The translations under genes and the position numbers were made by a program. Source: Akkermansia muciniphila (GTDB taxonomy: Bacteria; Verrucomicrobiota; Verrucomicrobiia; Limisphaerales; UBA9464). Taken from it: a stretch of 57,676 nucleotides of DNA. Positions 2,352 to 55,419 of this stretch are shown piece after piece. Location of the stretch: the NCBI GenBank assembly GCA_945898055.1, contig CAMDGV010000025.1:1-57676 (forward strand). The letters run 5' to 3'. Position 1 is the first letter of the stretch; each line of letters begins with the position of its first letter. The notes beneath the pieces are model-generated. The model saw nothing but the letters and a program-made list of their open reading frames with translations, was not told where the DNA came from and ran no database searches.

Positions 2352-2417
2352 GCTAAAAACACAAATGTGGCGGCTCCGATTGGTGGCATTTTTGACGTTT
2401 TCGCCTAAAGTGGCGCG

Positions 2418-10860: not shown

Positions 10861-10895
10861 ATATTTACTTCTAAAGATTTTGGGAATGCGCGGCG

Positions 10896-13111: not shown

Positions 13112-13227
13112 AAATGTGCTTATTCGATATTTACCATGAACCAGACGATTCTGGGCACCATAGGTGAAATCCACTGAGGACAGCGGGCCGTACCTGTTCG
13201 GCTTTCAAATGCGAGGTGCGTGTTCAC

Positions 13228-19243: not shown

Positions 19244-19267
19244 TAGGGAAGCGACGCCGAGGAACTT

Positions 19268-27454: not shown

Positions 27455-28882
27455 TTAAGCGAGGATCTGCTGAACGACGGTCCCAGAAACGTCGGTGAGG
27501 CGATAGTCGCGCCCCGCGTAACGATAGGTGAGTCGCTCATGATCTAGGCCGAGTAGGTGCAGGATTGTGGCATGAAGATCGTGGACGTGGACGCGGTCTT
27601 GGATTGCGTCCCAACCATAATCGTCCGTGGCGCCGTGAATATGGCCGCCTTTGACCCCGCCTCCAGCCATCCACATGGAAAAACCGTAGGGATGATGATC
27701 CCGCCCGTCCGTCCCTTGCGCGGCTGGAGTGCGTCCGAATTCGCCGCCCCAGATCACGAGTGTGTCGTCGAGCAAACCGCGTGAGCGAAGATCTTTCAGT
27801 AGGCCGGCAATGGGGCGGTCGGTGGCCGCGCAATTTTTTTCGTGCCCCTTCCTTAGGCTGCCGTGCTGGTCCCAGGGCTGAAAGTCCCCTTTCGCCGTGT
27901 GATACAATTGGATAAACCGCACTCCGCGCTCGACGAGTCGGCGGGCCAGCAGACATTGCTTGCCGAACGAAGCGGTCGTCTCGGCATCGATCCCATAGAG
28001 CTTCTTGGTGGCCTCCGACTCAACGTCGATATTGAAAGCGTCCGGCGCTTCGGCCTGCATGCTGTAGGCAAGTTCAAAAGAGGCGGCGCGCGCCTCGAGG
28101 CGTTCCTCGTCTGGGTGGCGCGTGCCGTGGAATTTGTTCAATTGCTGCAAGGTGTCCAATTGTTGCCGCTGCGCTTTCACCGCCCCAGCGCCTTTGAGGT
28201 TGCGAATGGGATTTTTTAAATCCGAAACAAAGGTGCCCTGATAGGTGGCGGGCAGAAAACTGGAACCATATTGGCGCGCGCCTTCGATGAGCGTCTTGGG
28301 ACCGATGGCCATATAGGCGGGCAGATTTTGATTCTCGGTGCCCAGGCCGTAAGTGATCCATGCACCCATGCTGGGGCGGGAGAAAACTCGCTCGCCGGTA
28401 TTCATCTGCAGGCAGCCACCGGGATGATTTGGGTCATCCGCCACCATCGAACGGATCAGGCAAAGCTCATCCACGCAACCGGCGACCTCGGGAAACAACT
28501 CGCTGACATCCATGCCGCACTGGCCGTATTTCTTAAACGTCCACGGCGACGCGAGCAGATTGCGTTGCTGACCGAGATAGAGCTTCGGCGACGGCTTTCC
28601 GTTGTCACGGCTCAGGATCGGCTTGGGATCGAAGGTATCCACCTGGGACGGACCGCCGGGCATGAAAAGAAAAATGACGCGCTTGGCCCGAGCGGGAAAA
28701 TGCGGCTTTTTGGGCGCGAGCGGATTGATGCCGGCGCCCGAACCCAGCGCGGAAATGGCTGCCCCTTCGTTGGCGCGCGCCTCGGAGGCCAAAAGGCTGG
28801 TGAACGCGAGGGAGCCAAAGCCGGCGCCGGCGACGCGTAGCATTCTCCGCCGAGTCATGGGTTCGAAAAATGGATTTTGCAT
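27455..28882 (-). CDS. DUF1501 protein, second copy
   Basis: This 475-aa paralogue of the protein at 19268-20704 has a Tat-type signal (MTRRRMLRVAGAGFGSLAF). It shares FLFMPGGPSQVDTFDPKP, CLIRSMVADDPNHPGGC, LPATYQGTFV and WGGEFGRTPAAQGTDG. It is the last gene of the minus-strand cluster and begins 18 bp after the cytochrome/DUF1553 gene. The partner relation is kept, so the two copies probably act on different substrates. Biochemical activity is unknown. Confidence 0.9.
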   Translation of the reverse strand: MQNPFFEPMTRRRMLRVAGAGFGSLAFTSLLASEARANEGAAISALGSGAGINPLAPKKPHFPARAKRVIFLFMPGGPSQVDTFDPKPILSRDNGKPSPKLYLGQQRNLLASPWTFKKYGQCGMDVSELFPEVAGCVDELCLIRSMVADDPNHPGGCLQMNTGERVFSRPSMGAWITYGLGTENQNLPAYMAIGPKTLIEGARQYGSSFLPATYQGTFVSDLKNPIRNLKGAGAVKAQRQQLDTLQQLNKFHGTRHPDEERLEARAASFELAYSMQAEAPDAFNIDVESEATKKLYGIDAETTASFGKQCLLARRLVERGVRFIQLYHTAKGDFQPWDQHGSLRKGHEKNCAATDRPIAGLLKDLRSRGLLDDTLVIWGGEFGRTPAAQGTDGRDHHPYGFSMWMAGGGVKGGHIHGATDDYGWDAIQDRVHVHDLHATILHLLGLDHERLTYRYAGRDYRLTDVSGTVVQQILA

Positions 28883-28900
28883 TTTGCGTCGGATACGTTG

Positions 28901-31900
28901 TCAGTTTACCTCGATAAATTCGTTGGCACAAAAAAGAATCTGACAATACGCCTCCAATTGTTCCATGCGGGAGTCGGCCAAAAAGCGCGCCCCCACCGCT
29001 ACCTCCCGCGCATCGGGGAGTCGCCCATAGAGAAGCCGATACGCGCGCATGATTTTGCCATGGATGGTTTTGGAGCCGGGATCGGAATCCAGGCGACGAG
29101 CAAGAGATTTGGCCTGCTGAAGGACAAATGGATCGTTCATCCAAAACAGGGCTTGCGGCGCCACGGTTGAAACGGTGCGCTTCTCGACCACGCGCCCGCC
29201 GTCGGGTTGATCGAAGAGCGAGCCGAAACTGGTCGAGCTTCCGCCCGTGCGGACGGTCATCAGATAAAGCGAACGGCGCGGTGTGGCGATCTCCAGGAAG
29301 CCGGGGCCGCTGACCGTGCGATCCAAGTTGCCGGCCACGGACAAAAGCGCATCGCGTATTTCCTCCGCATCCAGTCGGCGGTCATTCATGCGCCCGAACA
29401 GCCGGTTTTCCGGATCGGCCGCCGCGGTGGCCGGCGCGGCGGCAGCGCTTTGCTGATAGGCCGAGGAAGCCATAATGAGGCGATGCATCGCTTTCAACGA
29501 CCAGCCCGACCGAATGAATTCCTGGGCCAGATAATCGAGCAACTCGGGATTCGAAGGCGGTTCGCCCCTCAAACCGAAGTTGCCGGACGTGCGCACAAGG
29601 CCGTCGCCAAAATGATATTGCCAGATGCGATTCACCATCACCCGCGCGGGGAGGGGATTCTCGGGACTCGTCAGCCACTCCGCCAATTCCAGACGGCCGC
29701 TGCCGCCATCGATCTTTTGCGGATGCTCCGCGGCGAAAATTTTGGGAATGCCGCGCCGGGCCACTTTGCCGGGCGTCTTGGGATTGCCACGGTTGAAAAT
29801 GGGCGAGTCTTTGAACCCCTCGTAGGGCGTCTTGGCCGGGCCGCCTTCCTGCACCGCCACCGCCTGCGGCACGGCCCTCGTCGCCACTTTTTTCTTTTCC
29901 TGCAAAGCGGCTTCCTTCGCCAAAAGCGCGAGGAGATGATTTGAATCAAACTTTTCGTCGCGCTCATGTTTGGTCAGGCGGAAAGGGCCCTTCGCGGAAG
30001 AAATTTCGTTGTACTGGCGCTCGACCTCCGAGTTCCCGGACGCGAGTTCTACTTTGATTTCAGCCCCAAACCACTTGTTCGAAATTTCATTTTCGACTTT
30101 CGCCAGTTGGGCCGGTTCCAATTGCCGATCGTAAACGCGGAACTCCGCGATAGCGCCCGTGAACCGGGCCGCTCCGCCCGAACCGGGACCGCCCAGTTTA
30201 AGCGCCTTGATTTCCGGATCAGATGAGACTCCTTTCGTGCCCTCGTTCTGGCCCGCGACTTCGCCATCGCGCCGCAGCAAATTCCCTTTCGGACCCCAAG
30301 AGAGTGTGATCATTTCATAGCCAACGTTCGTTCTTCCCGCCGCAACAATGTCGCCACTCGCGCCGTCCTTGCGAAAGAGCGCATGCAAGCCGCCGGCGCC
30401 CGTCGTCAGCACGCCGACCCCATGTTTGCCAGCGTCCGAATCCTCCCAGCCAATAATCCGCTGGTTCGCGTCGGCCCCAGCCAGATTCACCACCATGCAA
30501 ACAGTCCCCTCCGGCGGCGCGAAAATGGGGGCCTGAAGCAGGCTTTTGCCACCAAATCGAATCACCGGACGATGGGAGCCGCGGACGGTGTCATTGGTGC
30601 GAATCGGCCCGGGCGCTCCCGAGACCGCGCTCAGGAACTGCCGGTTGCGGCGAGACCGGCTCGGCCAAAGCGAAACTCGTTCGTCTTTTTCCACCGCGAG
30701 GTTCGGATCATCCGCCTGCAATTTGATCAACTCGGCTTTGGCGAGATTTTTTTCCTCGGGCGTGAGCGACTCTTCAGCGGTACGCCTCTGCTCGACGAGA
30801 GCCGAGAATTTTTGGCCAAGCTCACGAATCGAATCTTCGACCACTTTCTCATCCGGCCGATCGGTCGCGGTCCCGAAAAGCTTTTGCCCCCAGGCCGCCA
30901 GCGACGCCTGGTTCGTGCTGGATTCCGCTGGAAATAATAACTCCAACCACTGCCCCAGGATCGAGCCATCGAGCGAATATTTCTGCGCCAATTGGGTCGT
31001 CGTCATCTCTCGCCCGGCGCGCTTGGCCTTTTGATGCTCCCAAGCCGCGCGCAAGTAATCGGCGGCCTGTCGCGCCGCGCGTGCTTCGAGATGATCCAGA
31101 TATTCGAACCGAAGCTGCCGGTTCAATTCCGGTATCTCGCCTTCGAGATCCTGAACCTCCTTTTTATGGGCTTCGATGCGATCCAATTCACATTTCGACG
31201 CCAACGGCACGCGCACCAGCGGCGTGTTGCCGGGGACCGGGCTTGGAATCAGGCGGGTGCTGAAAAAAATTCCGGCCAGCGCATAATAATCTTCAATGCT
31301 GATGGGATCGAACTTGTGGTCGTGGCACCGCGCACAGCCCAAGGTCAGGCCGAGGAAGGTGCGTCCCGTGACATCGACCTGATCGTTGACATAATCAGCG
31401 ATCATCATGTCTTTGTCATTGTCGCCCGGAATGAAATCCGCCAAGGCGAGAAAGCCGGTAGCCACGATCGCATCTTCATTGATTTTGTCGGCGGCAGTCG
31501 GCTGCAACAAGTCGCCCACCACCTGGTAGCGGGTAAATTCGGAATAAGGCATGTCGTCGTTAAACGCTTTGACCACCCAATCCCGATAGCGCCAAATCTC
31601 GCGAAAATCGCTTTCCGCCGGCAACTGAATCAAATCGCGCGCATCGGCGTAGCGCACGACATCGAGCCAATGCCTCGCCCAACGCTGGCCGTACGAGGGC
31701 GAAGCGAGCAAGCGATCCACCACCTTCGCAAAAGCATCCGGCGAGGAATCAGCCTCGAATAGCGCAATCTCTTCGGGCGTGGGCGGCAGGCCATTCAGAT
31801 CATAGGTGGCCCGCCGAATGAGGTTCTGCCGCGTCGCGGGGGGCGCGGCGGGGAGCCCGCGTTTTTCGAGAGCGGCCAGCAGGAAACGATCGACCGGCGA

Positions 31901-32413
31901 CTTGATCCAGCTTTTCTTTTGGACTGGTGGCAGCGACCGCGCCGCGAATTTCTGGAAGGCCCAATGCTTGGGAAATTCCTTCGTCGTGGCGACGTCCGGC
32001 GTCTGCGCGGCGCTGTCCGTGCGGGGATCCTCGGCTCCGTTTTTGATCCACTCCGTAAAATCAGCAATCTGCCGGTCGCTCAATTTTTTCTTCGGCGGCA
32101 TTTGCACATCCGGATTGTCATAGCGGATGGCCGTGAGCAAATAGCTTTTCTCCGGCTCGCCCGGAACGATGGAAGCCTTGCCGGATTCACCGCCCTTGAG
32201 CAGCGCCGCCCGCGTGTCGACCCGCAAGCCACCCTTCAATTTTTCCGCGTCTGCGCTGTGGCATTTGTAACAGCTTTCAATCAGGACCGGACGAATCTTT
32301 TGCTCGAAAAATTCGACTTTATCCGCCGTCGAATCCGCCCGCGCAACAAGGCTGACGAGCATCGCGCCGACCGCAATGAGCCTGCTCCAATAGATTGGCT
32401 TTCTTCCGCGCAT
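28901..32413 (-). CDS. Cytochrome c / DUF1549 / LamG / DUF1553 protein
   Basis: This is an exported protein of about 1170 aa from MRGRKPIYWSRLIAVGAML. The cytochrome part has CYKCH and VQMPPKKKLSD. DUF1549 has CARCHDHKFDPI. Residues about 580-800 form a LamG/concanavalin-like insert (HRPVIRFGGKSLLQAP, ARFTGAIAEFRVYDRQL) that could bind carbohydrate. DUF1553 follows (MVNRIWQYHFGDG, VSTVAPQALFWMND). A TTG at 32533 would overlap the GH36 stop but adds 40 residues ahead of a good signal peptide, so I prefer the ATG at 32413. It parallels the protein at 15701-19243 but has a different insert. Confidence 0.88.
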   Translation of the reverse strand: MRGRKPIYWSRLIAVGAMLVSLVARADSTADKVEFFEQKIRPVLIESCYKCHSADAEKLKGGLRVDTRAALLKGGESGKASIVPGEPEKSYLLTAIRYDNPDVQMPPKKKLSDRQIADFTEWIKNGAEDPRTDSAAQTPDVATTKEFPKHWAFQKFAARSLPPVQKKSWIKSPVDRFLLAALEKRGLPAAPPATRQNLIRRATYDLNGLPPTPEEIALFEADSSPDAFAKVVDRLLASPSYGQRWARHWLDVVRYADARDLIQLPAESDFREIWRYRDWVVKAFNDDMPYSEFTRYQVVGDLLQPTAADKINEDAIVATGFLALADFIPGDNDKDMMIADYVNDQVDVTGRTFLGLTLGCARCHDHKFDPISIEDYYALAGIFFSTRLIPSPVPGNTPLVRVPLASKCELDRIEAHKKEVQDLEGEIPELNRQLRFEYLDHLEARAARQAADYLRAAWEHQKAKRAGREMTTTQLAQKYSLDGSILGQWLELLFPAESSTNQASLAAWGQKLFGTATDRPDEKVVEDSIRELGQKFSALVEQRRTAEESLTPEEKNLAKAELIKLQADDPNLAVEKDERVSLWPSRSRRNRQFLSAVSGAPGPIRTNDTVRGSHRPVIRFGGKSLLQAPIFAPPEGTVCMVVNLAGADANQRIIGWEDSDAGKHGVGVLTTGAGGLHALFRKDGASGDIVAAGRTNVGYEMITLSWGPKGNLLRRDGEVAGQNEGTKGVSSDPEIKALKLGGPGSGGAARFTGAIAEFRVYDRQLEPAQLAKVENEISNKWFGAEIKVELASGNSEVERQYNEISSAKGPFRLTKHERDEKFDSNHLLALLAKEAALQEKKKVATRAVPQAVAVQEGGPAKTPYEGFKDSPIFNRGNPKTPGKVARRGIPKIFAAEHPQKIDGGSGRLELAEWLTSPENPLPARVMVNRIWQYHFGDGLVRTSGNFGLRGEPPSNPELLDYLAQEFIRSGWSLKAMHRLIMASSAYQQSAAAAPATAAADPENRLFGRMNDRRLDAEEIRDALLSVAGNLDRTVSGPGFLEIATPRRSLYLMTVRTGGSSTSFGSLFDQPDGGRVVEKRTVSTVAPQALFWMNDPFVLQQAKSLARRLDSDPGSKTIHGKIMRAYRLLYGRLPDAREVAVGARFLADSRMEQLEAYCQILFCANEFIEVN

Positions 32414-32529
32414 CAATAGTCGTTTTATGCGGGCCAGTCCCTCAGGAACAGGCCGAATACTTTCTCTCTCCACCGGAGAATTTTTTCCGCCGAATTTGAC
32501 AAAGTAACCTCTTGTTTTGGCCGAAGGTG

Positions 32530-34728
32530 TCAACGCTTTTTCCCGACGCTCTTCAGCCAGATGACCTCCGACTGTTCCAGATCCTGGTCCAACAAAATCG
32601 TCAGACCGTCCTTCATTAAATCAGCGCCCGCAACGGTTTTGCGCCCCCCGCTATTCAAGGAGATGGCTTCGTAATTCCTTTGCGGATCAAGCCCCCGCAA
32701 TGGCCATTGGCGAGTTTGATTGGTCGATCCGTTGCGGAAGAAAAAAGCCGCTGCCTCGGCCCCGTTGCGCGCCGAAAACTGGACGGCCTGCCAGTTTTTC
32801 GGCTGGGCCGGCGGCGTTAGATGAAAAACGTGCTCCAGCAGCAAGTGGCGGTACTTTTTGTAATTCGCGACGTTTCGAATAGCGGCTTCAATGACTTCGG
32901 GTGGATAAAGCGAAACGCGCTCGCTCAGGCTGCCGTGCAACGTTCCAAAACCGAAGGAGCCCATCATGCGCGATCGAAACATTGTGTCGAGAAAAGCAGG
33001 CGTTTGCGGTTTAGTCACCTCGTCGTCGCGCATGATCCACGTCATGTTGTGCGAACTCGGTAGCACATAAGCGGCGGCCAGCACATTATCGCGCACATGC
33101 GAGGAAGGCGCCGTCGAATCACTCAGCCAGTTAACCCGCGAACCATGCCGCGCCATTCCATAATCGAGGCGCGTCCCATAGGAACATTGCTCAATGATCA
33201 ATTTGGGATATTTTTTGTGAATTTCATCTAGGAGTCGGTACTTACCCAGGACGGCCGCCTGGCTGCCATTGCCGGCTTGGTGGCCGTGATCGGCGCGGTC
33301 GCAAACGATATCAATGCCCGGTAGGCCGGACGCGTCCCATTTCAGCCAATCCAATTTGTATTCGGCGATGATCCGGAACAATTCCTTGCGAAGATGCGCC
33401 TCCACCTCGGGAGTGCCCAGGCAGAGCATTTTCATCGGATTCCAACCGCCGATGCTTTGCAGGTTGAATTGGCCGTTCACTTTGGTCATCCAACGATCAG
33501 GCAATTTTTCCCGCTCCATGATCGTCACGTCCACCATCTCCGGACAGACCCAGAGGCCGAATTTCATGCCGCGGCCGCGCACGCTTTCGGAAAGGCCGCG
33601 CAGGCCGTTCGGGAGCTTGCGTTTGTCCTCGGCATAGCTGCCGAGGCCGACGCCCCATCGTTCCTTGTTCAAAACATCGGAGTCCCGGTACCATGCGGAA
33701 TCTTGGTAAAAAACTTCGACGCCCAATTTCTTCGCGGCGAATTCGGCCTCCTGCCTGATGCGCTCTTGGACATTCGTCCCTTCCGTGGACCAGATGTCGT
33801 AACAAACGAACGGGAAATTTGGCAACGGTTTCGGCAAAACATAGCTTTGCAAATAGTCGCGAGAGACATTGGCCGCAGTGTCCAGGTCGCCGAGCGCCAG
33901 GCCGACAAATATCCGCGGCGATTCGACCGAAGCGCCGAGAGCTAGGTCCACGGTGGCGCCGCGCCGCAGTCCCCCGGAGAACCGCACTTCTTTCGACGCG
34001 ATACCCCGTTTGAAGTCGAACGCCCATTGCCGCTCCCACTCGATGCCGGCGACCATAAAAGCGCCCTGGCCGCGATTCTCCAGCGCCAGCCAACCGGCGG
34101 CATTGGGTCCGTTCCAATTGCCGCCATCCACCGTCAAAGCATCCCGGATCTCGGCTGAATGCAGCCCATAGGAGTTCCGGGTGACCCAATGGGCGAAGAG
34201 AGGGCCAGCCGAAGAGAGTCCGAGCGAAACCGGATCAAAGACCGACAGTGCTTTGATGGTAGCTCTGCCCTCGTTCCGAAGAACCATCCGCCAATCGATC
34301 ACCGGCGAACCGGGATATGCGGTGATAAAAAGATCGCCCGCTAACTTAGAAGGCCCATGTTCAAATTGAATTTTTAAAGCAGTCCCCCCTCGTTCCGCGC
34401 GCTCCTTTGAATAGCTTTTATGGCGAATAACACTCTCGCCGCTGATGCCAATGGCTTTGATGGATTCGCTCAGAATGTTAAACACAACCGCGCTTTCCTG
34501 GCCCGCCCAATCCGGTCCGCCTTTATTTAGGCGAAACGAATTGAAGAGCACGGAACCGTCTGAGGCGAGTCTCAGCTTCAGAGTGACGGCGCCGCTGTCC
34601 AATGAGACCAGGCCATCGCGACTGCTTACCTTCACCGCCGCCTGCGTCCAGTTATCCGGGAGCATCCCCAAACAGATAAAGAATAGCGAAAGGGGAAAAA
34701 ACCGAGTGCGTGAATATTTTGTGGGCAT
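32530..34728 (-). CDS. GH36-type alpha-galactosidase, secreted
   Basis: This 732-aa protein has a signal peptide (FFPLSLFFICLGMLP). An N-terminal beta-sandwich is followed by the barrel: FVCYDIWSTEGTN, then the QDSAWYRD region, GMKFGLWVCPEMV, the nucleophile Asp in DWLKWDASG near residue 465, and the acid/base Asp in NWLSDST near 540, where GH36 enzymes usually have W(x)SD. It should release alpha-galactosyl residues in the periplasm or outside. It lies upstream of the cytochrome/LamG gene and downstream of the pseudopilin gene on the same strand, which points to a galactoside as target of this cluster. Confidence 0.85.
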   Translation of the reverse strand: MPTKYSRTRFFPLSLFFICLGMLPDNWTQAAVKVSSRDGLVSLDSGAVTLKLRLASDGSVLFNSFRLNKGGPDWAGQESAVVFNILSESIKAIGISGESVIRHKSYSKERAERGGTALKIQFEHGPSKLAGDLFITAYPGSPVIDWRMVLRNEGRATIKALSVFDPVSLGLSSAGPLFAHWVTRNSYGLHSAEIRDALTVDGGNWNGPNAAGWLALENRGQGAFMVAGIEWERQWAFDFKRGIASKEVRFSGGLRRGATVDLALGASVESPRIFVGLALGDLDTAANVSRDYLQSYVLPKPLPNFPFVCYDIWSTEGTNVQERIRQEAEFAAKKLGVEVFYQDSAWYRDSDVLNKERWGVGLGSYAEDKRKLPNGLRGLSESVRGRGMKFGLWVCPEMVDVTIMEREKLPDRWMTKVNGQFNLQSIGGWNPMKMLCLGTPEVEAHLRKELFRIIAEYKLDWLKWDASGLPGIDIVCDRADHGHQAGNGSQAAVLGKYRLLDEIHKKYPKLIIEQCSYGTRLDYGMARHGSRVNWLSDSTAPSSHVRDNVLAAAYVLPSSHNMTWIMRDDEVTKPQTPAFLDTMFRSRMMGSFGFGTLHGSLSERVSLYPPEVIEAAIRNVANYKKYRHLLLEHVFHLTPPAQPKNWQAVQFSARNGAEAAAFFFRNGSTNQTRQWPLRGLDPQRNYEAISLNSGGRKTVAGADLMKDGLTILLDQDLEQSEVIWLKSVGKKR

Positions 34729-34831: not shown

Positions 34832-35677
34832 TTACGGGGCTTCGGTGGTTCTTTCCTGGATCCACCGCAGATCCCTGAGGTCGGAAGCCGTGTCAAAAGC
34901 CACCTGGGTGTAATCGACGTAACGGACCGGGAGAGCCGTCTTGGCGACGATCCATTTCCGGATTTCCGAATGGCCGTCCGCAAAAGCGAAACCACAGGCT
35001 CCATTGTGGTAACTCGAGGGCACATCTGACCAACCGGTTCCCTTGACGTCGACGATCATGGCCCCGTCGTTGATGCTGTCCGGTTGCTCATCCACAAAGA
35101 CCCAGGCGTTGGACGGCGAGAGCCTCCGGATGTGGTTCAGCTTTTTGTAAACAACCCGCTCGGTTGGCCACCAATCCTTGGATCCCTTGGTGGCTCCCTC
35201 CCCCATGTAGAAGTTCATCGCCACGCTCCGGACTCGCTCGACCCAGCCACGTTGGCGCTGGGCCTTGGCCACGTATTTGTCCGCTGGACATTTATAGGAG
35301 TTCTTTGCATTCCCCATGTAGGTGGCTAATTTGGCAAACCGGGGCGTCGTCAGAAAAGCGACGTTCGTATTGTCGCTCGCGGTGGTCCAGGTCAGGAAAC
35401 CGGTGATCCAACTGTTCTCGACCATGCCGGGTGCACCCAAGTTCTGGTTCTCCACCAATTGATCGTTATTGTCGAGCGCGTAGGAAGTCCAAGCGAGAGC
35501 CAGTTGCCGAGTGTTGTTCATGCAAAAGATGCCCTGCGCCTTGCTCTTTGATTTACTGAGGGCGGGCAGCAACATCCCCGCGAGAATCGCGATGATCGCT
35601 ATCACCACCAACAACTCAATTAAGGTAAAGGCCCGATCGTTCCCATTCGGTCCGATATTTCCATTTTTAGCATTCAT
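34832..35677 (-). CDS. Pseudopilin-like protein (prepilin signal)
   Basis: This 281-aa protein has a type IV/type II prepilin signal ([20 protein letters not shown]) at residues 15-34, with cleavage before Phe. The C-terminal part carries [28 protein letters not shown] and [19 protein letters not shown], the H-x-G-DGH block of the large Verrucomicrobia/Planctomycete group related to DUF1559. Such proteins are expanded in these phyla and sit beside secreted hydrolases. It lies 38 bp after the large discoidin-repeat gene. It may be part of a secretion or cell-surface pseudopilus; this is inferred. Confidence 0.88.
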
Positions 35678-35715: not shown

Positions 35716-38700
35716 TTATTTTTTCAGCCGGTAGAATCTCATTCCTTGCGGCTGCGTGATGCGGGTTGGGCTGGTCGCGCCAACCCTATCAGTCCACTGG
35801 ATCGCGTCGATGGTATCGGAGTATTGCAGGGTGGCCGTTCCCGCCCATGAGATCAGCAGGTCGGCCCCGTCTTTCGCCACGAAAATACGGAGCGGCAGCG
35901 CAGCCAGATTGGCCACGGCGTAGTACTCGAATTGCGCCGTTCTGGGAGCATGGCCCATCGTAACGGCCGTCTCGTGAATTCTCCAAAATTGAGACGCGAC
36001 GTTTTCAAAATTGAAGAGCGAAGAGGAATACCATCCGCCGGCATCAGTCCGCAGGCTGCCGTCGTCATTGACGCCACCGCCAGTTGTTTCGTAACGGAAG
36101 TCCGTGGCCGGAGTCCACGTGGCGCCATCGTTGGATCGTTCGACCGTCCAAATAGATCCGCGCGCTCCGCCACCATAGCTGCTGAAGGCGCGGAATAGAT
36201 TCAAAGCCCGCGGCGACCCAAGATCGAGAATCAACTTAGCGTCCAGAGGCCAGATCCAGCCTTGGTCCGTCACGTTGTTCGGGATGCCATAAGGAATCGG
36301 GTCCGACCAGGTCAGATCTGCTGGCGAGGCAAAGAAGTTCAGCGTACCCGAAAGCATCTCGGGTGTGACCGGCAAAGGCTGCGCGAGCGAACCCGAGAAC
36401 TCCAGTTGCGCGGTGCGCGGAGCATGTCCAATCGTCACCGCTGTTTGGCGAATCCTCCAATAACGCGCCGCTGTGCTGCCCGCGTTGAAGGTCGTCCCAA
36501 ACCAGCCGCCGAAATCGGTCCTCGATGTTCCGTCGTCGTTCAAACCACCGTCCTTCGTGTTTTGATAAACAAAATCGGTGGACTTGGTAAAATTGACGCC
36601 GTCATTGGAATATTCAATTGCCCAATTGGCGCCACGACCCGCTCCACCGTAACTGGTGAACGCGCGGAATTTTTGGACGATGGCCGGCACGCGGAAATCA
36701 ACGGTCAATGAGCCCGAATTATCTATCGGCCAGATCCAGCCTTGATCATTCACGTTGTTCGCAATGCCGTAAGGAAGAGGCTGCGCAAAGGTCAACCCGG
36801 CCGGCGACGCGAAAAAGTTCAGCGACCCCGACAACATGCTCGGATACACGTCCAAAAGGCCGCCCTGCACGTTGAAGGTGAACTCAAAGCTTTGCACGAT
36901 GCTCGGCCCGCCCACATTGCCGAACGCGATTCGAGCCGTGTTCAGCCCGCTGCGAAGTCCACCGTTCGGCTTGAAGCTTACCGTCGTAATGATGGAGCCA
37001 ACCGGACGATCGACCGTCGCGGCAACGCTCTGGCCGTTCACCATTAATTGAACGGAACCCAGATTTACCGCAGTGATATTATCCTGCAATTCCACCATGA
37101 TCTTGGACGAAGGATTCACACTGCGGCCAATCGGCACGACCGATTTCACGCTTGGCAAGGGGAGCGCGCTAAAGAACTGCACTCCTCCGGAACGCGGCGC
37201 GTTGCCAATGGTGACGCGAGCTTGTTTGACCCTCCAATGGCGATGCGATTTAGCGCCATTTTCGTTGAAACTGATCTCGTACCAACCCGCGGTGTCGGTG
37301 CGCTTGGCGCCCGTGACCTCATCAACGGCTCCGCCGATTTTTGTTTCGTAAAGGAATTCAGTGTACGGGGTCCACGTTTGGCCGTCGTCGGAATGCTCAA
37401 TGGACCAAGCCGCTCCTCTCCCGCCGCCCGGATACGTTGAATAAACCCGGAATCGAGCCAGCGGCGTCGCCTGCCCGAAATCGACCATCAACTCTCCGGA
37501 ATTATCCTGGGGCCAGATCCATCCAAAATCACTGGCGTTATTCGCAATGCCATAGGGAATCGGATCGGTGAAGAATAAACCCGCCGGCGAGGCAAAGAAC
37601 CGCAGCGGTCCCGAAAGCATGCCCGGCGTCACGAGCAGTTGCGAATCCGGGACCACCGTGAAGGCAAAATCATGGGTTTGATCCACTGCGGTCGTCGTAT
37701 CTCCAAAAATCAGCCGATAATTATTTGCCCCTAGGGCTAATAGTCCGGGTGGATCATAGGTCACGGTGGTGACTTTGCTCCCGCCCGGCTTGTTCAAAGT
37801 CGGAGCGACAACGGTGCCGTTAACGAGCAATTGTACCGAAGCAGGATCGAGCACATTTATGTTATCCTGGATCTCTACCTGGATAACACCATTTTGGCGG
37901 ATGTTCCCATTGCCTGGCCTGTTCGATAGAATAAAAGACGACGGTCCTGCGCTGACAAGGGTCAGGCCAGCCATCCGTCCGGGATCTCCGTTAAAATGCC
38001 CATGGACTTTTCCGTCCACCACCGGCACCTGCGGGAAGAACGTGGTATTGTCTCTCGTGAAGAATCTGCCTAACGGCGCCAGCGCCCTCGTGCCACCCTT
38101 CACGAGGATTTCGCCAGCCGACGCGTAGAAATACAAATCGACATTCGGCGTGCTGCCCAAGCCGCTGATCGTGAAATCGGAGGTTAACGTGATCTGCGCG
38201 CCAAAACCGACAAAAATTCCGTCCGCAAACAAAGCGGATGCCGATCGTCGATCAGTAGCTGGGCTGAGGGCGTCGCCGCCTACGGGCGAAATGCTGAAAT
38301 CAATCGTGGTAGGATCTCCGAGCGAGGTCGAAAGGTTATTGGCGGTGATGGTCATATTATCATCATCTCCTCCGCCTTCCAAACGCGAATCTGCCACCAC
38401 CACGTTCCAAAAATTTCCACCGCCCGCAGGACCCATACCCAAAAATGTGACTCCAATCTCATCGGGACCGGGGTCGTTCCTCGCGCCTTTAAAGTCAACG
38501 TTTACAACCAATGCGGACGTTGCTTCGTTGGCGATAACAAAAATGAATTTATTAGTTTGCAGCGCTGTGAGCACGCCGGTGTCCCCAAAAATAATCTCCA
38601 CATTATTCGTGCCTTCTGGCAGCAGCGTCGGCAAATCGTAAGTGACGGTGGTTACTTTGGAACCGCCGGGCTTGTTCAAAACCGGGGTCACTACCACTTC

Positions 38701-39444
38701 ATTCAAAGTCAATTTAATCTTCGCCGGGTCCAGCGACGTCACGGACCCATCTTCAATTTCCACAATAATGTTTTCAGTCGCTCTCACTCCATGACCCCCT
38801 GGAAACGTCGATTTGATGGAGGGAGTTGTCGATTTCCCCCCGAAGAACTGCATTTCCCCGGAACGTGCCGCATGGCTGAACAAAATCGCGGTTTGCTTGA
38901 TCCTCCAATAACGGGCTGCGGTTCCCTCGCTATTGAAAGCAGTTGCATACCAACCCCCGAATCCTACGACCGCCACCCCGTCATCATCCACCCCGCCGCC
39001 GTTGGTGGCTACATAAGGAAAATCAGTCGATTTTGTCCAATTCACAGCGTCAGCCGAATATTCAATCGCCCAATTCGCCCCGCGCTGGCCCCCATTATAC
39101 GTGGTATAGACGCGAAATTTGGACAAGGCCGTCGGGACCCTGAAATCCACTTGCAACAACCCTGAATTGTCACGCGGCCAAATCCAGCCGCTATCCGAGA
39201 GGTTATTAGCGACGCCGTAAGGCACCGGTGAGTTGAAGGTCAATCCAGCCGGCGATGCGAAAAATTCCAGCGAACCGGAGAGCATGTCCTGCGTCACCGT
39301 CAACCGCTGTTGCGCCGCCCGCGCCGAGCTCAAGACCAAACACAAAACCGTCAAAAAAGCGAGACCCCATCGAGAAAAATAACCCTGCCTGTTAGTTGTC
39401 TTGGGAGGGAGATGTTTGGGTGAATAATCCTTATTTATGCTCAT
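35716..39444 (-). CDS. Secreted protein with four discoidin-like modules
   Basis: This 1242-aa exported protein has a signal segment ([14 protein letters not shown]). Four similar modules lie at about residues 50-203, 603-758, 861-1019 and 1027-1178. Each reads roughly MLSG.L.FFASPA, P.PYG.(A/P)NN, GWIWP.D, FR.(Y/F).(T/S)Y.G..RG, GGWY and RTAQ or RSG. Between them are three Ig-like repeats ([12 protein letters not shown]) and a secretion-linked domain with [14 protein letters not shown]. The C-terminus ends FYRLKK. The modules look like F5/8 type C (discoidin) carbohydrate-binding folds, with an unusual first strand. The same module is inserted in the CotH protein at 2.4-6.8 kb. It likely binds glycans at the cell surface and heads the minus-strand cluster. 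Confidence 0.8.
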
Positions 39445-46891: not shown

Positions 46892-48022
46892 TTAGAAAAG
46901 TCTCTCCCCTCCTGTATACTTTTTTACGGCATCGAGGTCGAGTGTGAGGCCGAGTCCGGGCGTGTTTGGAATTGCGAGCATGCCGTCGGCATCGAGGTGC
47001 CACCCGCCGGCAGTGATCTCGTCGATGAAGGGAGAACCAGTGAGATACTCGACGAGGTCGGTGCCGGGGAACGCGGAGGCCAGGTGCAGATCAGCGGCGA
47101 GACCGACGGCGGTGTTCCATCCGTGCGGGATGAAACGGACACCGTGCTCCTGCGCCATCCATGCGATGCGGCGCTCCTCGCTGATGCCGCCGACTTTCGT
47201 CACATCCGGTTGCACTATATCCAATGCACGCGCTTCCAGCCACGGCTGAAATGCCTGCCGTTGGGTGAGCACCTCGCCGCCCGCGATGGGTACGGGCGAA
47301 TGTTCGCGCAGTTTGACGTGATCTTCCAACGCGTTGGGAACGAGCGCCTCTTCGAACCAATACACATTGTAATCGGCCAGCATCCGCGCGGTATTGATCG
47401 CCCACTTGTAGCCGTTGGGCCAGAAGGCGTCGCTCCCGCCTGCATCGACCATTAGTTTATTATCTGGTCCAATCGCTTCGCGCGCGGCTTTCACGATCGC
47501 CTCGTCGGTCGTTGCGTTGCGGCGCCCGAACGGACCCCAGCCTATTTTGAAGGCACGGAATCCCAGCGCCCGAACGGCCAGCAAGTGATCGTAGAGCTTC
47601 GCTGGTTCATCCATGAGTAACGACGCGTAAGGCTGCACCCTCTCGCGATAACGTCCGCCGAGCAAGCGTCCGACAGGTTGCCCCGTGGCTTGTCCGAGCA
47701 AATCCCAAAGCGCGATATCCACTCCGCTAATTGCATGTGTGATGGAGCCACCGCGACCGAGCCAGAACGAATTCTGGTGCAACTTCTCACTGACACGCTC
47801 CGGTTCCAGTGCGTTCTCGCCCCGATAGAGTGGTTCCAGCACAGCGAGCGCGGCGCGCACGAGTGCGTCGTTGGTAAACACACTGCCGAGGCCGATCGCA
47901 CCTTCGTCGGTGTGGACGGCAATAAGTGTGTGAACGCAGTCGTCGGGACGTAGCTCATTGCTCCAACCGCCTTCTGGGGTGGCGCCGCGCAGGCCAGCAC
48001 AGCGAATTTCACGAATCTTCAT
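46892..48022 (-). CDS. Enolase-superfamily enzyme (mandelate racemase group)
   Basis: This 376-aa protein starts at MKIREIRCAG. Capping-domain and barrel markers include SGVDIALWDLLGQATGQPV, the catalytic Lys in FKIGWGPFG, metal ligands in MVDAGGSDAF, YWFEEAL and IAGGEVLT, and the acid/base His in FIPHGWNTAVG. The sequence belongs to the mandelate-racemase-like sugar-acid dehydratases or racemases. It differs in catalytic layout from the protein at 7815-9020 (Lys/His rather than ExH), so the two act on different acids. The ATG at 48022 overlaps the M81 gene by 14 bp; the longer frame from 48172 reads through that gene and is rejected. Confidence 0.85.
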   Translation of the reverse strand: MKIREIRCAGLRGATPEGGWSNELRPDDCVHTLIAVHTDEGAIGLGSVFTNDALVRAALAVLEPLYRGENALEPERVSEKLHQNSFWLGRGGSITHAISGVDIALWDLLGQATGQPVGRLLGGRYRERVQPYASLLMDEPAKLYDHLLAVRALGFRAFKIGWGPFGRRNATTDEAIVKAAREAIGPDNKLMVDAGGSDAFWPNGYKWAINTARMLADYNVYWFEEALVPNALEDHVKLREHSPVPIAGGEVLTQRQAFQPWLEARALDIVQPDVTKVGGISEERRIAWMAQEHGVRFIPHGWNTAVGLAADLHLASAFPGTDLVEYLTGSPFIDEITAGGWHLDADGMLAIPNTPGLGLTLDLDAVKKYTGGERLF

Positions 48023-49544
48023 GGGGATGTTCTTGATGGGGTTTATGCCGATGACGGATAAATAATTTTGCCTGCGGGGTAAATTCCACGTTTTCGTCGA
48101 GCGGGAAGATCGGACGTTGGCAACGGGTGTGACCGAGGCTGTGGAGGTTTGCACTCGTGGAACCGGGCGCATCCACGTCGATATAGCGGGCAGCCCAGTC
48201 CCTAAACATCTGCGACTCGCAGTGTGGCGACTTTACCACGACTGCGCCGAAGTGTCGGGGGTCGCAGCCATGCGCAAGGAAAAGTGCACGATCGTAGAGG
48301 CTTACCGCGCGGCTTGTGACGATGAGCGTGAAGTTGCCGAATTGGATCACCGCCGTCCGTCCGGCTTGCCAGAGTTCGCGTGTCGTCTCGCTGTGGAAGC
48401 AACCGTCGGAAAGCATTCGCACGCGGCCTTCGACTGGCAGTGGAGTGAAGCGAGCATGATCGAGCGCGCCGCCAATGTTCGTTTTGACCGAATTGCCAAT
48501 GCCAGCCGCAAATGCTGCCGAGACGGCGTAGGGATCGACGATCGGAATCAGCGCAGTGCCTTCGTATCCGGCTTCGAGCAGCGCGCACAGGATCGCGTTG
48601 CTGTCCCCAGATGCGCCGGAGCTTGTTGCGTCCGCCGCATCCACGAGCACCACGGTGCCGGCATCGTTCGCCTTCGTGATGCGTGCCGCGTCCGGGAGCT
48701 TGGTGAGCGTCACTTGCATTTTCTGGTGATGCTCCCAGAAAAGGTTGGCGAGGTGCAGGGCTTCGCGCTCGGCACGGGCGGGGTCGTTGTCCGTCACCAC
48801 AAAACTGTTCGAGGCGAGCGCTGGAACGTCAGTGAACGGGTTGCCCCACATCATCGCTGCCGAAAGGCCGCCGGGACTTCTCTCGATGGCCATTGCCGCA
48901 TTCACCGCGTGGCGAATCAAACCGGTCTCAGTAATGAGTTCGTCGCCGCGCACCAATGCCGGCACGGTCACCTTGGCCGTCACTGGTCGAACCTCGCCCG
49001 CCACGATGCGTAGCAACAGTTTTGCTGCTCGCTCGCCCGTGCCAAAAAAATCCACGTGCGGATACGTGTGAAAGGCCACAACTGCGTCGCAGTGCTGAAG
49101 CATCCGATCTGTGAGAATGCCGTGCAGGTCGAGAGAGACTACGATCGGCACATGCTCGCCAAGAATCCTCCGCGTCTCCCCGAGCAGCCAGCCCTCGGGG
49201 TCTGCCTCGCTCTCCGTTGCCATCGCGCCGTGCAGAGAAAAGTAAACACCATCCACCGGCGGCGCGGCCTTAATGCTCGCCAGTATTTCGCCAGCGATCC
49301 GCTCAAATGCCGTGTTCGACAGCGTCCCACCTGAAGTAATGAAGTGAGCACTGCACGTCGGCACCAACTGCACGTCAGCGCGCGAATCGAAGACACTGAG
49401 CGCACCGCCAATTTCGCTGCTCACCCTGCGGTGATAGCTGAGTATGTCCGCGCCTCGCCGAAGGGTGAAATCCCCATAGCCGCTCAGGACCGGATTGAAC
49501 GTGGAGACTTCTTGTTTGCATTCAGCGATGAGGATTCTCTTCAT
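48009..49544 (-). CDS. M81-family metallopeptidase/amidohydrolase (MlrC-like)
   Basis: This 511-aa protein starts at MKRILIAECKQEVSTFNP. It has the DUF1485 N-terminal domain with zinc ligands in VVSLDLHG and VAFHTYPHVD, and FSLHGAMATESEADPEG. The MlrC C-terminal domain has LVDAADATSSGASGDS near residue 305. The family is named for microcystin degradation gene mlrC, which cleaves linear peptide products, but most members occur in unrelated catabolic clusters. Its ATG overlaps the stop of the double hydrolase gene by 4 bp. Here it may cleave an amide or an unusual peptide bond in the imported compound. Confidence 0.87.
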   Translation of the reverse strand: MKRILIAECKQEVSTFNPVLSGYGDFTLRRGADILSYHRRVSSEIGGALSVFDSRADVQLVPTCSAHFITSGGTLSNTAFERIAGEILASIKAAPPVDGVYFSLHGAMATESEADPEGWLLGETRRILGEHVPIVVSLDLHGILTDRMLQHCDAVVAFHTYPHVDFFGTGERAAKLLLRIVAGEVRPVTAKVTVPALVRGDELITETGLIRHAVNAAMAIERSPGGLSAAMMWGNPFTDVPALASNSFVVTDNDPARAEREALHLANLFWEHHQKMQVTLTKLPDAARITKANDAGTVVLVDAADATSSGASGDSNAILCALLEAGYEGTALIPIVDPYAVSAAFAAGIGNSVKTNIGGALDHARFTPLPVEGRVRMLSDGCFHSETTRELWQAGRTAVIQFGNFTLIVTSRAVSLYDRALFLAHGCDPRHFGAVVVKSPHCESQMFRDWAARYIDVDAPGSTSANLHSLGHTRCQRPIFPLDENVEFTPQAKLFIRHRHKPHQEHPHEDS

Positions 49545-52270
49545 GGCATCGCCTTCCATTGCTCGTCGAAAAAGCCCGCGCGCACGACTTCCTCGGGAAA
49601 CGTCGGGGAGGTCGGTTGCCACGCCTCTCCGCCAAGTTGGACCTTCATCACCGCCCAATCGCCGAGTCGTGGGAAGAGCAGGTAATTAAAAGTGGCGAAT
49701 TCTTTCTCGTGGAAAGTGTGACCGCTGTTGATCACTAGGTAATGCGCGCCGGCCCCCTGCAGTGGACTCGCGCAGATGAAGACTGGAGCGTGATTTTTGG
49801 AGGAAACCGCTTCGCCGACGAGCCTCACCTCAGTGCGCGTCCATTTGACGGGCAGGTAGGGCAGAGTCCTACGAATCCATTTGTTGCTTCCGGGATCTCC
49901 GAATAAAATGAGGTTTTTCGTGTGCACGTCTTCCTCGGTGACATCCTTGTCGTCCTTTACCGGCAGATTGCCGCGCAGGTAGCGTGCCCATTCATAGGCG
50001 AAGCGGCGAAGGTTCGCATCGGCCCATGCGCCGACGACGGGATTCCATGGTTTACCGGTGCCGCGCACGCAGAGAAACGGCGCGCTGAACGCATCGTCGA
50101 TCGGGCCTTGCAAGCCGGGGCGTTTTCCCGTTGGCACGTTATTGCTGTGGGCGCCGAGGCATCGCCATTGGTCGCCCTGTTTTGCGAGAACGAGTGAGGA
50201 CGTCTGCGCCGGCAGCGTGATATTCACGCCATCAATGCGCAGCTTCGCCCCTCGGTTTTGGAGCATCGGTGGATGAATCGTGAACTGGGTGATGTTCTTT
50301 GGATCCGTGATTTCGACGGTGCCATCATCGTCGACTTTCGCGGAGATTTCCGCGCGCTCATAGTGCTTGGCGAGCGCGAGCAGTTCGAGCCAGTGGCAGC
50401 GGTTGTATTTCAGCGTCCACGTCACGAAGTGCAGTGAGCGCGCCGCATGATCGATTCCCGCCGTGGCAAACTCACCTATTCGGCGCATCTGCTCGGCCTG
50501 TGTTAGCGGATCAATCACGTGAGCAGTACCAGGTGAGATGAGGTTCACTAATTGTAGTCCTTCCTTTGCGAAAGCTTGGCCCATATGGACGTGCGATTCA
50601 AAAAAAACGTCCTTGTCGCCGATCGCTGCGATGGTGGGCACGACGCTCGCGTTCGCCGCGTAGTCCACAGAGTCGAGCAGGTGCAGTCCGAGTTCCTGAT
50701 GCGGCGGAAGCGGGCCGACTTTAATGAATCCCGGAACCGGCGTTTCAGAGAAACGGTGCGTATCCACATATCCGCAGTATGGCCCGATGGCGACGAAGCG
50801 GTCTGGGTGCTTGAGGCCGAGATGCCACGTTCCGGAGGCGCCCATGGACATTCCACGCAGGACGATCCGGTCGCGATCAATTCTGTAGTTCCTACAAACG
50901 GCTTCGATAGCCTCGAAGACATCCGTCTCGCCTGCCCAGCGGTAGCAGTTCTCCACCCGACCAAGAGGATGCAATTCGATGAAATTATTTTTTGGTGCGG
51001 TTATCGCCGCATCATCTCCCTCGGCGAAGCGCGCGCCGAAGCGCACTTCACTCAGCCCTACCGGTTTCGAACTCCCGTGCAGGACAACATCGAGGCGCAT
51101 CGTTTTCGTGCCATCGTAACCGGCAGGAACGATCACTCCATACGGCTGCGTTGAGCCATCCACCGCTGAGACGAAGCCGCGCAGCACACTGCCCTTCCTC
51201 GCGCTCCACGGCGCTTGGTTGGCGAGCAGCGCGTCGGCGCGTTGTAAGCCCCTCGCGCTCGCCTTCTTCATCATCGCTACATCGTTTGGAGCAAGATTTG
51301 TTTCGTAACGCAGTGCCCATTCGACACTCTTATGGAACACCTCGGCATCGGCGAGCAGATCCGGCGCGGATGCCTTCAGTGCTTTGATCCGGTGCGCGAG
51401 TTGTTCTTGTCGGGTTTCGATGTCCCTCCGGTCATTCTCCGGGAGAGTTGCAAGTACAGGCCCTGATCCGCTTGCCACTGCCGCGCCAGCCTCACGCAGC
51501 ATGAACTCCATCGCAGCGCAGGTATCGTCGTAGTTCGTCGAGTGAACGCCGACTTCACGATGGATGCTGAGCACCTTACGGTCAGCCTTCTTGAGTTCTC
51601 CGACCAATCGCAGCACGCTTTGCGGTGGCACGACGACGTCATTGCCGCCGGTCGTGAACGCGACCGGCATCGTGAAGCGCCAAGGCCACAACTCGGCGCT
51701 GCGCTTCTTGTATTCATTCGGTACGTCCGATTTACCGCCACCAAAAGCCGCATTGATCGCCTCCTGAAATCCATTGTATTCGAGCAAGTTTGCGGTTCCG
51801 TTAAGGCTGCAAACGCCGGCGACTAAATCAGGATGTAGCGCGGTGAAGGTCAGAGCTGCCGTTGCGCCCATGGAGGCTCCTGCGACAAAGACGCGCCCGA
51901 CCTTATGGCGCTGCTTTAACTCCGCGATTATCTGCACCACATCCGCCTCGGCCAACGGTCCCATCCACGACGTCTTGGCCCGATAGTCGGGTGACACGAC
52001 GATCAATCTGAACCTCGTTGCCACGTCGCGCACTCCGCGACATTCGTCACGCGAATCATTGATAAACTGCCAGCGATCAGCACCGTGGCCGTGAAAAACG
52101 AGCACTAAATCGTGGGCTTTAGCTGGATCAAAGCCGGGTGGAAGTAGCTCGATGTAGCGTTGATGAGAGCCGTCGGTACCGGCTTTAAATGCCCTATCTG
52201 CCGGTTCCGAACCGACTGCGCAAAAAGCAGTAAAAGCAAGGAAGGCAAGGATAGCGTGCACGATTTTCAT
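49541..52270 (-). CDS. Secreted fusion of two alpha/beta hydrolases
   Basis: This 909-aa exported protein (MKIVHAILAFLAFTAFCAVG) has two esterase-like domains. The first, about residues 35-265, has VFHGHGADRW (oxyanion) and the nucleophile elbow GASMGA near 130. The second, about 385-640, has VLHGSSKP and GMSMGASGTW near 500, with a late His in SPGTAHVID. A linker helix region (about 280-350) joins them, and a beta-rich tail follows (VKDDKDVTEEDVHTKNLILFGDPGSN). Single-domain versions are known as polyhydroxybutyrate-depolymerase- or prolyl-oligopeptidase-like esterases; two complete catalytic units in one chain is unusual. It directly abuts the MFS gene (TGA then ATG) and overlaps the M81 gene by 4 bp. 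Confidence 0.82.
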   Translation of the reverse strand: MKIVHAILAFLAFTAFCAVGSEPADRAFKAGTDGSHQRYIELLPPGFDPAKAHDLVLVFHGHGADRWQFINDSRDECRGVRDVATRFRLIVVSPDYRAKTSWMGPLAEADVVQIIAELKQRHKVGRVFVAGASMGATAALTFTALHPDLVAGVCSLNGTANLLEYNGFQEAINAAFGGGKSDVPNEYKKRSAELWPWRFTMPVAFTTGGNDVVVPPQSVLRLVGELKKADRKVLSIHREVGVHSTNYDDTCAAMEFMLREAGAAVASGSGPVLATLPENDRRDIETRQEQLAHRIKALKASAPDLLADAEVFHKSVEWALRYETNLAPNDVAMMKKASARGLQRADALLANQAPWSARKGSVLRGFVSAVDGSTQPYGVIVPAGYDGTKTMRLDVVLHGSSKPVGLSEVRFGARFAEGDDAAITAPKNNFIELHPLGRVENCYRWAGETDVFEAIEAVCRNYRIDRDRIVLRGMSMGASGTWHLGLKHPDRFVAIGPYCGYVDTHRFSETPVPGFIKVGPLPPHQELGLHLLDSVDYAANASVVPTIAAIGDKDVFFESHVHMGQAFAKEGLQLVNLISPGTAHVIDPLTQAEQMRRIGEFATAGIDHAARSLHFVTWTLKYNRCHWLELLALAKHYERAEISAKVDDDGTVEITDPKNITQFTIHPPMLQNRGAKLRIDGVNITLPAQTSSLVLAKQGDQWRCLGAHSNNVPTGKRPGLQGPIDDAFSAPFLCVRGTGKPWNPVVGAWADANLRRFAYEWARYLRGNLPVKDDKDVTEEDVHTKNLILFGDPGSNKWIRRTLPYLPVKWTRTEVRLVGEAVSSKNHAPVFICASPLQGAGAHYLVINSGHTFHEKEFATFNYLLFPRLGDWAVMKVQLGGEAWQPTSPTFPEEVVRAGFFDEQWKAMP

Positions 52271-54718: not shown

Positions 54719-55022
54719 CTGATAAAGATCATAGAAAGTATCGGCATCGGGAGATCGGGAACAAGGTAGGCATCTCTCCATGAAAACGCATCCTAATTTT
54801 CCATCGTCGCAAACCGTCGACTCGGAACCACCGTTGCCAAACCTCATGATAGGGGATCCTCTCCCTGAGGTTCCATCCGCTCAATTGACTCAGCCAATTT
54901 GCGGATCGGAAAATTAAACTCGCTCTCGACGTCCATGCCGGGGACCTCAGGGCGGTTCGCAGGGGGATGGGCTTTTCTGAGGTGTGAGTTTTCTAGGGTA
55001 GGGTAGGGGGGCGGAGAGAAGT
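54719..55022. other. Spacer between the operon and rnpB with no recognised gene
   Basis: About 300 bp with no coding frame that I can support. A short gggtagggtagggg run lies at 54997-55013. The promoter of the decayed pilin gene, and perhaps of the seven-gene operon, may lie here. Confidence 0.4.
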
Positions 55023-55419
55023 GTCTTGGAAGAGCTGTAAGCCGAATTCTGTCTTCCCAGCTTACGCTAGGGAGAGAGTCATTTATCTGAGCGACCGATA
55101 CCCGGAACCCGTTTCACTTTCGCAAAACCGACGCGGGCAGCGTCAGGGTCCCCTATTTGGTCTTGCTCCCGGGGAGGTTTTCCATGCCCCGCTTCTTACG
55201 TCGCGAGCGGTGGTCTCTTAAACCGCCTTTTCACCCTTACCCAAGCCTTGCGGCGCGGGCGGTATAGTCTCTGTGGCACTGTCTGTCGGTCACGGTTTTC
55301 ACCGCAGCCTCCCGTGTGTATCCTCGGCTTAACCGAGGTTACACGGCCCCGTGCCCTATTGGAGTTCGGACTTTCCTCCCGCGACTTGCGCCGCGAGCGA
55401 CCCTCCGCTCTTCCAAGAC
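55023..55419 (-). ncRNA. rnpB: RNase P RNA
   Basis: Read on the minus strand, the RNA starts gtcttggaagagc and ends gctcttccaagac, which pair over 13 bases as helix P1. Near the 5' end is gaggaaagtccgaactc, the conserved RNase P segment. Near the 3' end are ataaatgactctc and acagaattcggcttacag, the universal end segments. The length of about 397 nt suits bacterial type A RNA. It is the catalytic part of the enzyme that trims the 5' ends of tRNA precursors. Being single-copy and essential, it places this window on the chromosome. Confidence 0.95.

Follow-up and report, generated by a model that had tools for sequence, protein, structure and literature searches.

The 57,676-nucleotide contig CAMDGV010000025.1 (assembly GCA_945898055.1, listed under Akkermansia muciniphila; order Limisphaerales), referred to here as the window, encodes a module of approximately 160 amino acids (aa) that occurs four times in an open reading frame (ORF) of 1242 aa at 35716-39444 on the minus strand and once in an ORF of 1486 aa at 2365-6825 on the plus strand. 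Judged by sequence, the modules belong to the F5/8 type C (discoidin) superfamily as a very divergent clade and are not a new kind of protein: the domain type is known, and what is new is the clade, which is very rare in the collections searched. We consider it probable, at roughly 0.6, that the modules serve as multivalent ligand-binding domains, most likely glycan-binding, of secreted proteins belonging to a sugar-related gene cluster. The boundaries of the modules were set by us (modules 3 and 4 overlap by 2 residues), and the scores below are those of each single module against PF00754 (F5_F8_type_C), the curated cut-off of which, 28.2 bits, was passed by three of the five.

38827-39312, minus strand: module 1 (aa 45-206), 29.5 bits
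37156-37647, minus strand: module 2 (aa 600-763), 32.9 bits
36379-36864, minus strand: module 3 (aa 861-1022), 28.3 bits; the module modelled with alignment A4 (see below)
35905-36384, minus strand: module 4 (aa 1021-1180), 16.6 bits, under the cut-off
3367-3855, plus strand: module 5, inside a CotH protein (aa 335-497), 25.3 bits, under the cut-off

A profile built from the five modules gave 258-279 bits per copy, the next six-frame matches in the window being below 0 bits, and a search of the whole source genome (4.63 Mb, 136 contigs) returned the same five copies and no further ones. The five repeated modules reported in an earlier note on this DNA are thus real. For further comparisons we used a set of 11 modules, comprising those of the window and those of genome G015, which was taken as a Lake Baikal Pedosphaera metagenome-assembled genome (contig SIBK01000051.1; hereafter Baikal) since the loci give the same match values; with the profile of this set, the best of 2000 shuffled modules scored 9.5 bits. 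Pairwise identity among the five window modules was 48-60%, with 46 invariant columns in these five and 31 in the 11. GWIWP was invariant, and FFASP, P.PYG, NN..D.GWIWP and RG..W were kept in all five window modules, the position of GGWY being occupied by GGWY, AGWY or GGWF. The earlier note had described the pattern as strict. This was borne out for FFASP, P.PYG and GWIWP, but N or D precedes P.PYG in only three of the five copies (the others have S and Q), and in the CotH copy the L or I after FFASP is one residue nearer; the pattern is accordingly strong rather than strict.

PF00754 matched the whole 1242-aa protein in four stretches (E 5.1e-22, 78.8 bits), and stayed under its cut-off on the whole CotH protein (23.5 bits) and on a stand-alone module protein of Baikal (19.7 bits); the NedA-like PF22633 also matched the modules. 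The hmmscan alignments with PF00754 began at module residues 35-49, leaving roughly the first quarter of the module outside the profile match, and an hhalign comparison of the modules with 16 F5/8-type domains (probability 97, E 1.2e-10) covered columns 49-159 only. As the clade lies at the detection edge of the standard F5/8 profile, it would often be missed. No NCBIfam match named either of the two modules tested or the whole multi-module protein, and the literature search found no title or abstract opening about the module.

The generic F5/8-type domains were our own selection from relatives, all within the phylum of the window; 32 were listed and 18 cut out, of which 16 (without L064 and L076) entered alignment A3 and 12 (A3 minus L055, L056, L058 and L060) entered alignment A4, the residue counts on 16 and 12 being in agreement. 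In a tree of the 11 modules and the 16 generic domains the modules formed one clade (support 100/100, branch 2.45), which was present in 100% of 200 bootstrap trees. When the modules were aligned jointly with the 12 generic domains, module residues N36-N37...W43 fell on the ordinary D-G...W segment, with NN..D.GW at the site of DG....W, and the two groups shared a common order of motifs, namely the DG...W segment, the VDFG strand, the S.DG..W strand, the WR strand and a terminal E/Q strand. Two conserved insertions are specific to the modules and lacking in most ordinary domains: ten residues at SG.L.FFASP, where ordinary domains have a gap, and approximately 16 residues at GGG.NDDG..RT. Thus, of the suggestion that the modules are a group of their own, marked by an unusual beginning and standing apart from F5/8 type C domains, the distinctness is upheld by the separate clade, the restricted hhalign columns and the FFASP insertion, whereas the separation has to be given up in view of the four-stretch PF00754 match, the three modules above the cut-off and the alignment of NN..D.GW with DG....W.

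The same alignments bear on the calcium site of CBM32, the CAZy family of carbohydrate-binding modules (CBM) of the F5/8 type. In the CBM32 of LnbB, calcium is held by the side chains of D804, T809 and E931, and the Glu of the site is displaced in CpCBM32, according to the part of the source drawn on here (PMC12926856). The Asp position is D in 12 of 12 ordinary domains (16 of 16 in the larger set) versus N in 11 of 11 modules, and the Gly position is G in 11 of 12 (15 of 16) versus N in 11 of 11; the last-strand Glu position is E in 11 of 12 (15 of 16), the modules having Q in nine cases and E and G in one each. At the Thr/Ser position, S is found in 6 of the 11 modules. The modules as aligned do not have the CBM32-type Asp-Thr/Ser-Glu site, suggesting that the usual structural calcium site has been lost or changed. 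The possibility exists that the modules are nevertheless ordinary CBM32-type binders of galactose or N-acetylhexosamine, with an odd first part that is functionally meaningless; the PF00754 and PF22633 matches, the S residues at the Thr/Ser site and the best fold match by E-value, CpGH89, would all agree with this. We find it improbable, because the modules form a separate, long-branched clade, because D, G and E of the ordinary domains are so consistently N, N and Q, and because the two conserved insertions are mostly lacking in ordinary domains. CBM32 modules of CpGH89 without exposed aromatic residues seemed not to bind sugar, as stated in the part of that report used here (PMC3313936). The modules are rich in conserved aromatics, a composition that would be compatible with binding.

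We predicted the structure of module 3 by AlphaFold2 from alignment A4, which contained the 11 modules together with the 12 generic domains. The model reached a mean predicted local distance difference test score (pLDDT) of 86.8 and a predicted template modelling score of 0.84. Discoidin-type proteins led the Foldseek results (best E 8.6e-6, CpGH89, an enzyme with CBM32 modules), and a second structure comparison placed the C2 domain of factor V on top (Z-score 13.2, root-mean-square deviation 2.7, 136 residues aligned), the structure match spanning residues 1-162 of a model that leaned on the generic sequences. Factor V/VIII, neuropilin and DDR2 were among the structures matched, and the viral proteins listed by a fold search were either of the F5/8 type themselves or without a name (best E 2.1e-5). 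As the model leans on the added sequences, we regard the discoidin fold of the modules as a strong prediction and not as independent proof.

Several observations on the fold weigh against our interpretation. The 12 generic sequences tilt the A4 model toward the discoidin fold, SUN domains were level with discoidins (Z 12.9), and the model is least certain at residues 21-40, which make up most of the FFASP-PYG-GWIWP stretch. The prediction from the five modules alone was a poor jelly roll (pLDDT 60.8), the best structure match of which was XepA (Z 8.8), followed, among others, by the receptor-binding domain of a Clostridium enterotoxin (Z as high as 7.8) and by discoidin domains (Z 6.4-7.2). 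In addition, no solved structure was found by sequence with an E-value better than 0.12. Both the near-equal matches of the modules-only model to several jelly rolls and the lack of a solved structure by sequence would be understandable if the modules were an independent jelly-roll family that came to resemble F5/8 domains by convergence on a common core. The PF00754 and hhalign matches are significant, though, and the motifs stand in F5/8 order, making such convergence very unlikely.

The protein carrying four of the modules has the following parts in addition to those listed above.

35716-39444, minus strand: multi-module protein, 1242 aa (modules by profile; ortholog aligned)
37648-38826, minus strand: linker (aa 207-599) with an immunoglobulin (Ig)-like domain, a domain of about 200 aa and a second Ig-like domain; no Pfam family at E<=0.1
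35719-35904, minus strand: C-terminal domain of about 60 aa, LQ.........W.......SP.........FYRL; 14 genome matches, itself included

In order, the protein contains a signal-peptide-like N terminus, module 1, an Ig-like domain, the ~200-aa domain, an Ig-like domain, module 2, an Ig-like domain, modules 3 and 4, and the C-terminal tag, the signal peptide and the Ig-like character being judged by eye. The signal-peptide-like start suggests that the protein is probably secreted or exported. When the linker was searched in 313 genomes of the order (its own included), 111 matched; among the matches listed, full-length homologs were present only in its own genome, G015, G567 and G612, the matches in the others extending over about 65-160 residues, chiefly at either end of the linker. 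Six G567/G612 proteins repeat the Ig-like and ~200-aa domains without the module, some with further domains that have no Pfam name. At their C termini, five of these proteins carry a ~60-aa domain of the type seen in the window's protein, and the sixth is cut off by the end of its contig. Framework homologs that carry other domains and no module are what would be expected of exchangeable binding domains, and the framework could be a display scaffold into which such domains are swapped. Of the 14 genome matches of the C-terminal domain, 12 lie in open frames of more than 600 aa; the domain is possibly a sorting or anchoring tag. Two G612 contigs with framework homologs also carry a nearby cupin-AraC regulator. 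The ~200-aa domain (window 37945-38517 and the G567/G612 proteins L128-L133) starts like VxxDFxGxRN, followed by GAAGGG..WNG, and occurs in as many as four copies per protein in other bacterial families; it has no Pfam name.

The genes around the modules are largely shared with the Baikal contig.

34832-35677, minus strand: pseudopilin-like protein, the next gene downstream of the multi-module gene; N_methyl 6.7e-9; Baikal ortholog 66% identical in aa
32530-34728, minus strand: glycoside hydrolase (GH) of the GH36/melibiase family; Melibiase 3.3e-31; 61-62% identical to the Baikal one
28901-32533, minus strand: PSCyt1-PSCyt2-PSD1 (DUF1549/DUF1553) protein, in the cluster common with Baikal
27455-28882, minus strand: DUF1501 protein (2e-151), in the common cluster
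19268-20704, plus strand: second DUF1501 protein, in the common cluster
15692-19243, plus strand: second PSCyt1-PSCyt2-PSD1 protein, in the common cluster
9033-13174, minus strand: four genes common with the Baikal contig, transketolase to sugar porter
9033-10064 and 10015-10860, minus strand: split transketolase, 64 and 76% aa identity to Baikal
10896-11678, minus strand: short-chain dehydrogenase, 64% identity to Baikal
11675-13174, minus strand: sugar porter, 68% identity to Baikal
6792-7808, minus strand: cupin-AraC regulator; HTH_18 3.1e-24, Cupin_2 7.3e-9; Baikal ortholog 64%

The gene order differs between the two clusters. In the Baikal contig the pseudopilin ortholog likewise follows the multi-module gene, the cupin-AraC ortholog adjoins that gene, and the multi-module protein has five modules versus four in the window's. 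Identity to Baikal was 49% for the multi-module protein, and 46% over the first part and 58 and 62% over the rest of the CotH protein. Sugar-acid genes also neighbour the module genes in the window. The two pairs of PSCyt/PSD1 and DUF1501 genes (15692-20704 and 27455-32533) are on opposite strands, and both have Baikal counterparts; the stand-alone module gene of Baikal (L021:9557-10414) shares 52 bases with the beginning of the CotH ORF (L021:5403-9608). Elsewhere in the window, 48009-49658 encodes a protein related to the microcystinase MlrC (181.9 bits against a cut-off of 999), which could be worth noting in a bacterium from a lake, and a class A RNase P RNA gene is present at 55022-55416 on the minus strand; a tRNA search of the window found none. 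Neither RNA result has a bearing on the modules.

The fifth module is part of a protein of another type.

2365-6825, plus strand: CotH-kinase/lamin-tail-domain (LTD) protein carrying module 5; CotH 4.1e-13, LTD 4.5e-12

The Baikal CotH protein aligned on both flanks of module 5 and had nothing in its place. CotH relatives in the family were counted if the upstream match ended at 315-339 and the downstream match started at 492-513 of the window protein, relatives without the wider stretch around the module site (e.g. G006, G008, G014 and G039:C197) being left out of the count. Among the matches listed there were 22 such places in 21 genomes, all 22 without the module, with a gap at the site of -5 to 33 aa versus 163 aa for the module. 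Module 5 is thus a clean insertion, most likely gained in the window's lineage. It shared 46-58% identity with the ten remaining modules, the closest being Baikal module 3 (58%). The 11-module tree, in which only the pairs WA1-BA1 (97/95) and BA3-BA4 (95/93) were well supported, left the position of the CotH copy unsettled, so that we claim neither a duplication in place nor the recruitment of a stand-alone module of the Baikal type.

Two further observations concern the CotH ORF itself. At 2430-2680, as seen by eye, its start is out of frame: a lamin-tail-like sequence, preceded by a signal-peptide-like stretch, continues in another frame to approximately 2640, where a 7-base unit is tandemly repeated. 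Phase variation or an assembly error would be possible explanations of the frame change. At approximately 5308-5320 (aa ~984 of the CotH protein), near the end of the CotH match, about 70 residues that follow a PWD motif in the Baikal ortholog are lacking, making CotH activity doubtful.

Profile searches for the modules covered overlapping sets of genomes drawn from the family (50), the class (384), the order (320) and the phylum (387), the last of which did not include G015. Full-length modules were found only in the window genome and G015, and the module was found in none of the 18 further genomes of its genus. The other matches were partial, at 20-27 bits, in 1, 5, 4 and 7 genomes of the respective sets; scoring in the class, order and phylum searches was limited to at most 9 or 11 candidates from each genome, and weak relatives may therefore have escaped. 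One match, in G540, seemed to span residues 2-132 and was dismissed as chance, the frame being ankyrin-like with stops. When 84,980 species genomes were scanned for peptide patterns, an approach that detects only close relatives retaining those peptides, 22 pattern matches were obtained; two loci among them encode relatives, both on SIBK01000051.1. We also considered the module as part of a phage or a plasmid; the pattern scan of 2.9 million viral contigs and a tblastn search of 72,556 plasmid records with one module yielded no relative. The patchy spread of the module suggests that the cluster may be a transferred accessory locus.

Taken together with the gene context, the modules would act as follows. 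The 1242-aa protein would be exported and display four modules, with Ig-like domains setting two of them apart and the other two adjoining each other in tandem, and the CotH protein would display the fifth. The modules would most likely bind a glycan or glycoconjugate and hold the glycan, or the cell, near the enzymes of the cluster, and the GH36 enzyme, the transporter and further enzymes would use the sugars of the bound glycan under the control of the cupin-AraC regulator. Multivalency is proposed because of the multiple copies, and a role in substrate capture is part of the same proposal. A glycan is proposed as the ligand because of the GH36, sugar-porter and neighbouring sugar-acid genes, together with the company that CBM, GH and PSCyt genes are known to keep: in freshwater Verrucomicrobia, PSCyt, sulfatase, GH and CBM genes neighbour each other, as described in the part of He et al. 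(2017, PMC5615132) that we used. From this context, carbohydrate binding by the modules is plausible.

Certain findings do not favour glycan binding. No ligand-site residue could be assigned in the modules. Close relatives of the GH36 enzyme were found in 2 of 48 other genomes of the family, G015 and G017, and the G017 gene has PSCyt- and DUF1501-type neighbours with no module in 16 of 22 kb read, indicating that the modules are not needed for the GH36 enzyme. Many discoidin domains bind proteins or lipids, and the factor V/VIII, neuropilin and DDR2 matches are of this kind. The modules might accordingly be protein-protein or cell-surface assembly domains that hold the multi-module, CotH and other proteins together at the cell surface. 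Such a role would allow for the presence of the module in two distinct proteins encoded by a single cluster, as seen in the window, and in both a multi-module and a stand-alone protein in Baikal; moreover, for freshwater Verrucomicrobia, the section of He et al. used here places PF00754 among the domains of protein-protein interaction (PMC5615132). However, no partner was shown by any result, and the cluster holds a GH36 enzyme and a sugar porter; we consider an assembly role unlikely, if worth keeping in mind, and favour ligand-binding domains of a sugar-related cluster.

A more far-reaching form of the glycan-binding proposal, which we put forward only tentatively, is that the modules constitute a new family of carbohydrate-binding modules, in which the discoidin fold has dispensed with the customary acidic calcium ligands and presents a new aromatic binding surface formed by FFASP...PYG...GWIWP. 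Such a family would move as a cassette, whether arrayed in tandem, encoded alone or inserted into a CotH protein, and always within one transferable sugar-related cluster. The modules offer a natural test of whether the discoidin fold works without the usual calcium-ligand acids, and the CotH protein, for which a module-free ortholog is at hand, clearly illustrates the addition of a binding domain to a different protein. Evidence of binding, if obtained, would help to assign a substrate to one PSCyt/DUF1501 gene set of freshwater Verrucomicrobia; nothing was known about the functions of these sets as of 2017, according to the portion of He et al. available to us (PMC5615132).

When compared with known systems, the cluster resembles the PSCyt/PSD and CBM gene sets of freshwater Verrucomicrobia in having PSCyt beside or fused to binding domains as well as GH genes, and differs in the module and the tandem protein, which are not mentioned in the sections of He et al. 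drawn on here (PMC5615132). The C2 domains of factor V/VIII gave the highest Z-score for the A4 model, yet they are animal domains with 15-17% identity, and other discoidins and SUN domains were within 1 Z. With F5/8 type C domains of PF00754 the modules share the core motifs VDFG, S.DG..W and YWR, significant profile matches and the predicted fold, and they depart from them in NN for DG, in GWIWP, in the two insertions and in Q for the last-strand E. To CBM32, as in CpGH89 and LnbB, they are alike in predicted fold, tandem copies and a nearby glycoside hydrolase, and unlike in that two of the three side-chain calcium ligands are changed in most modules.

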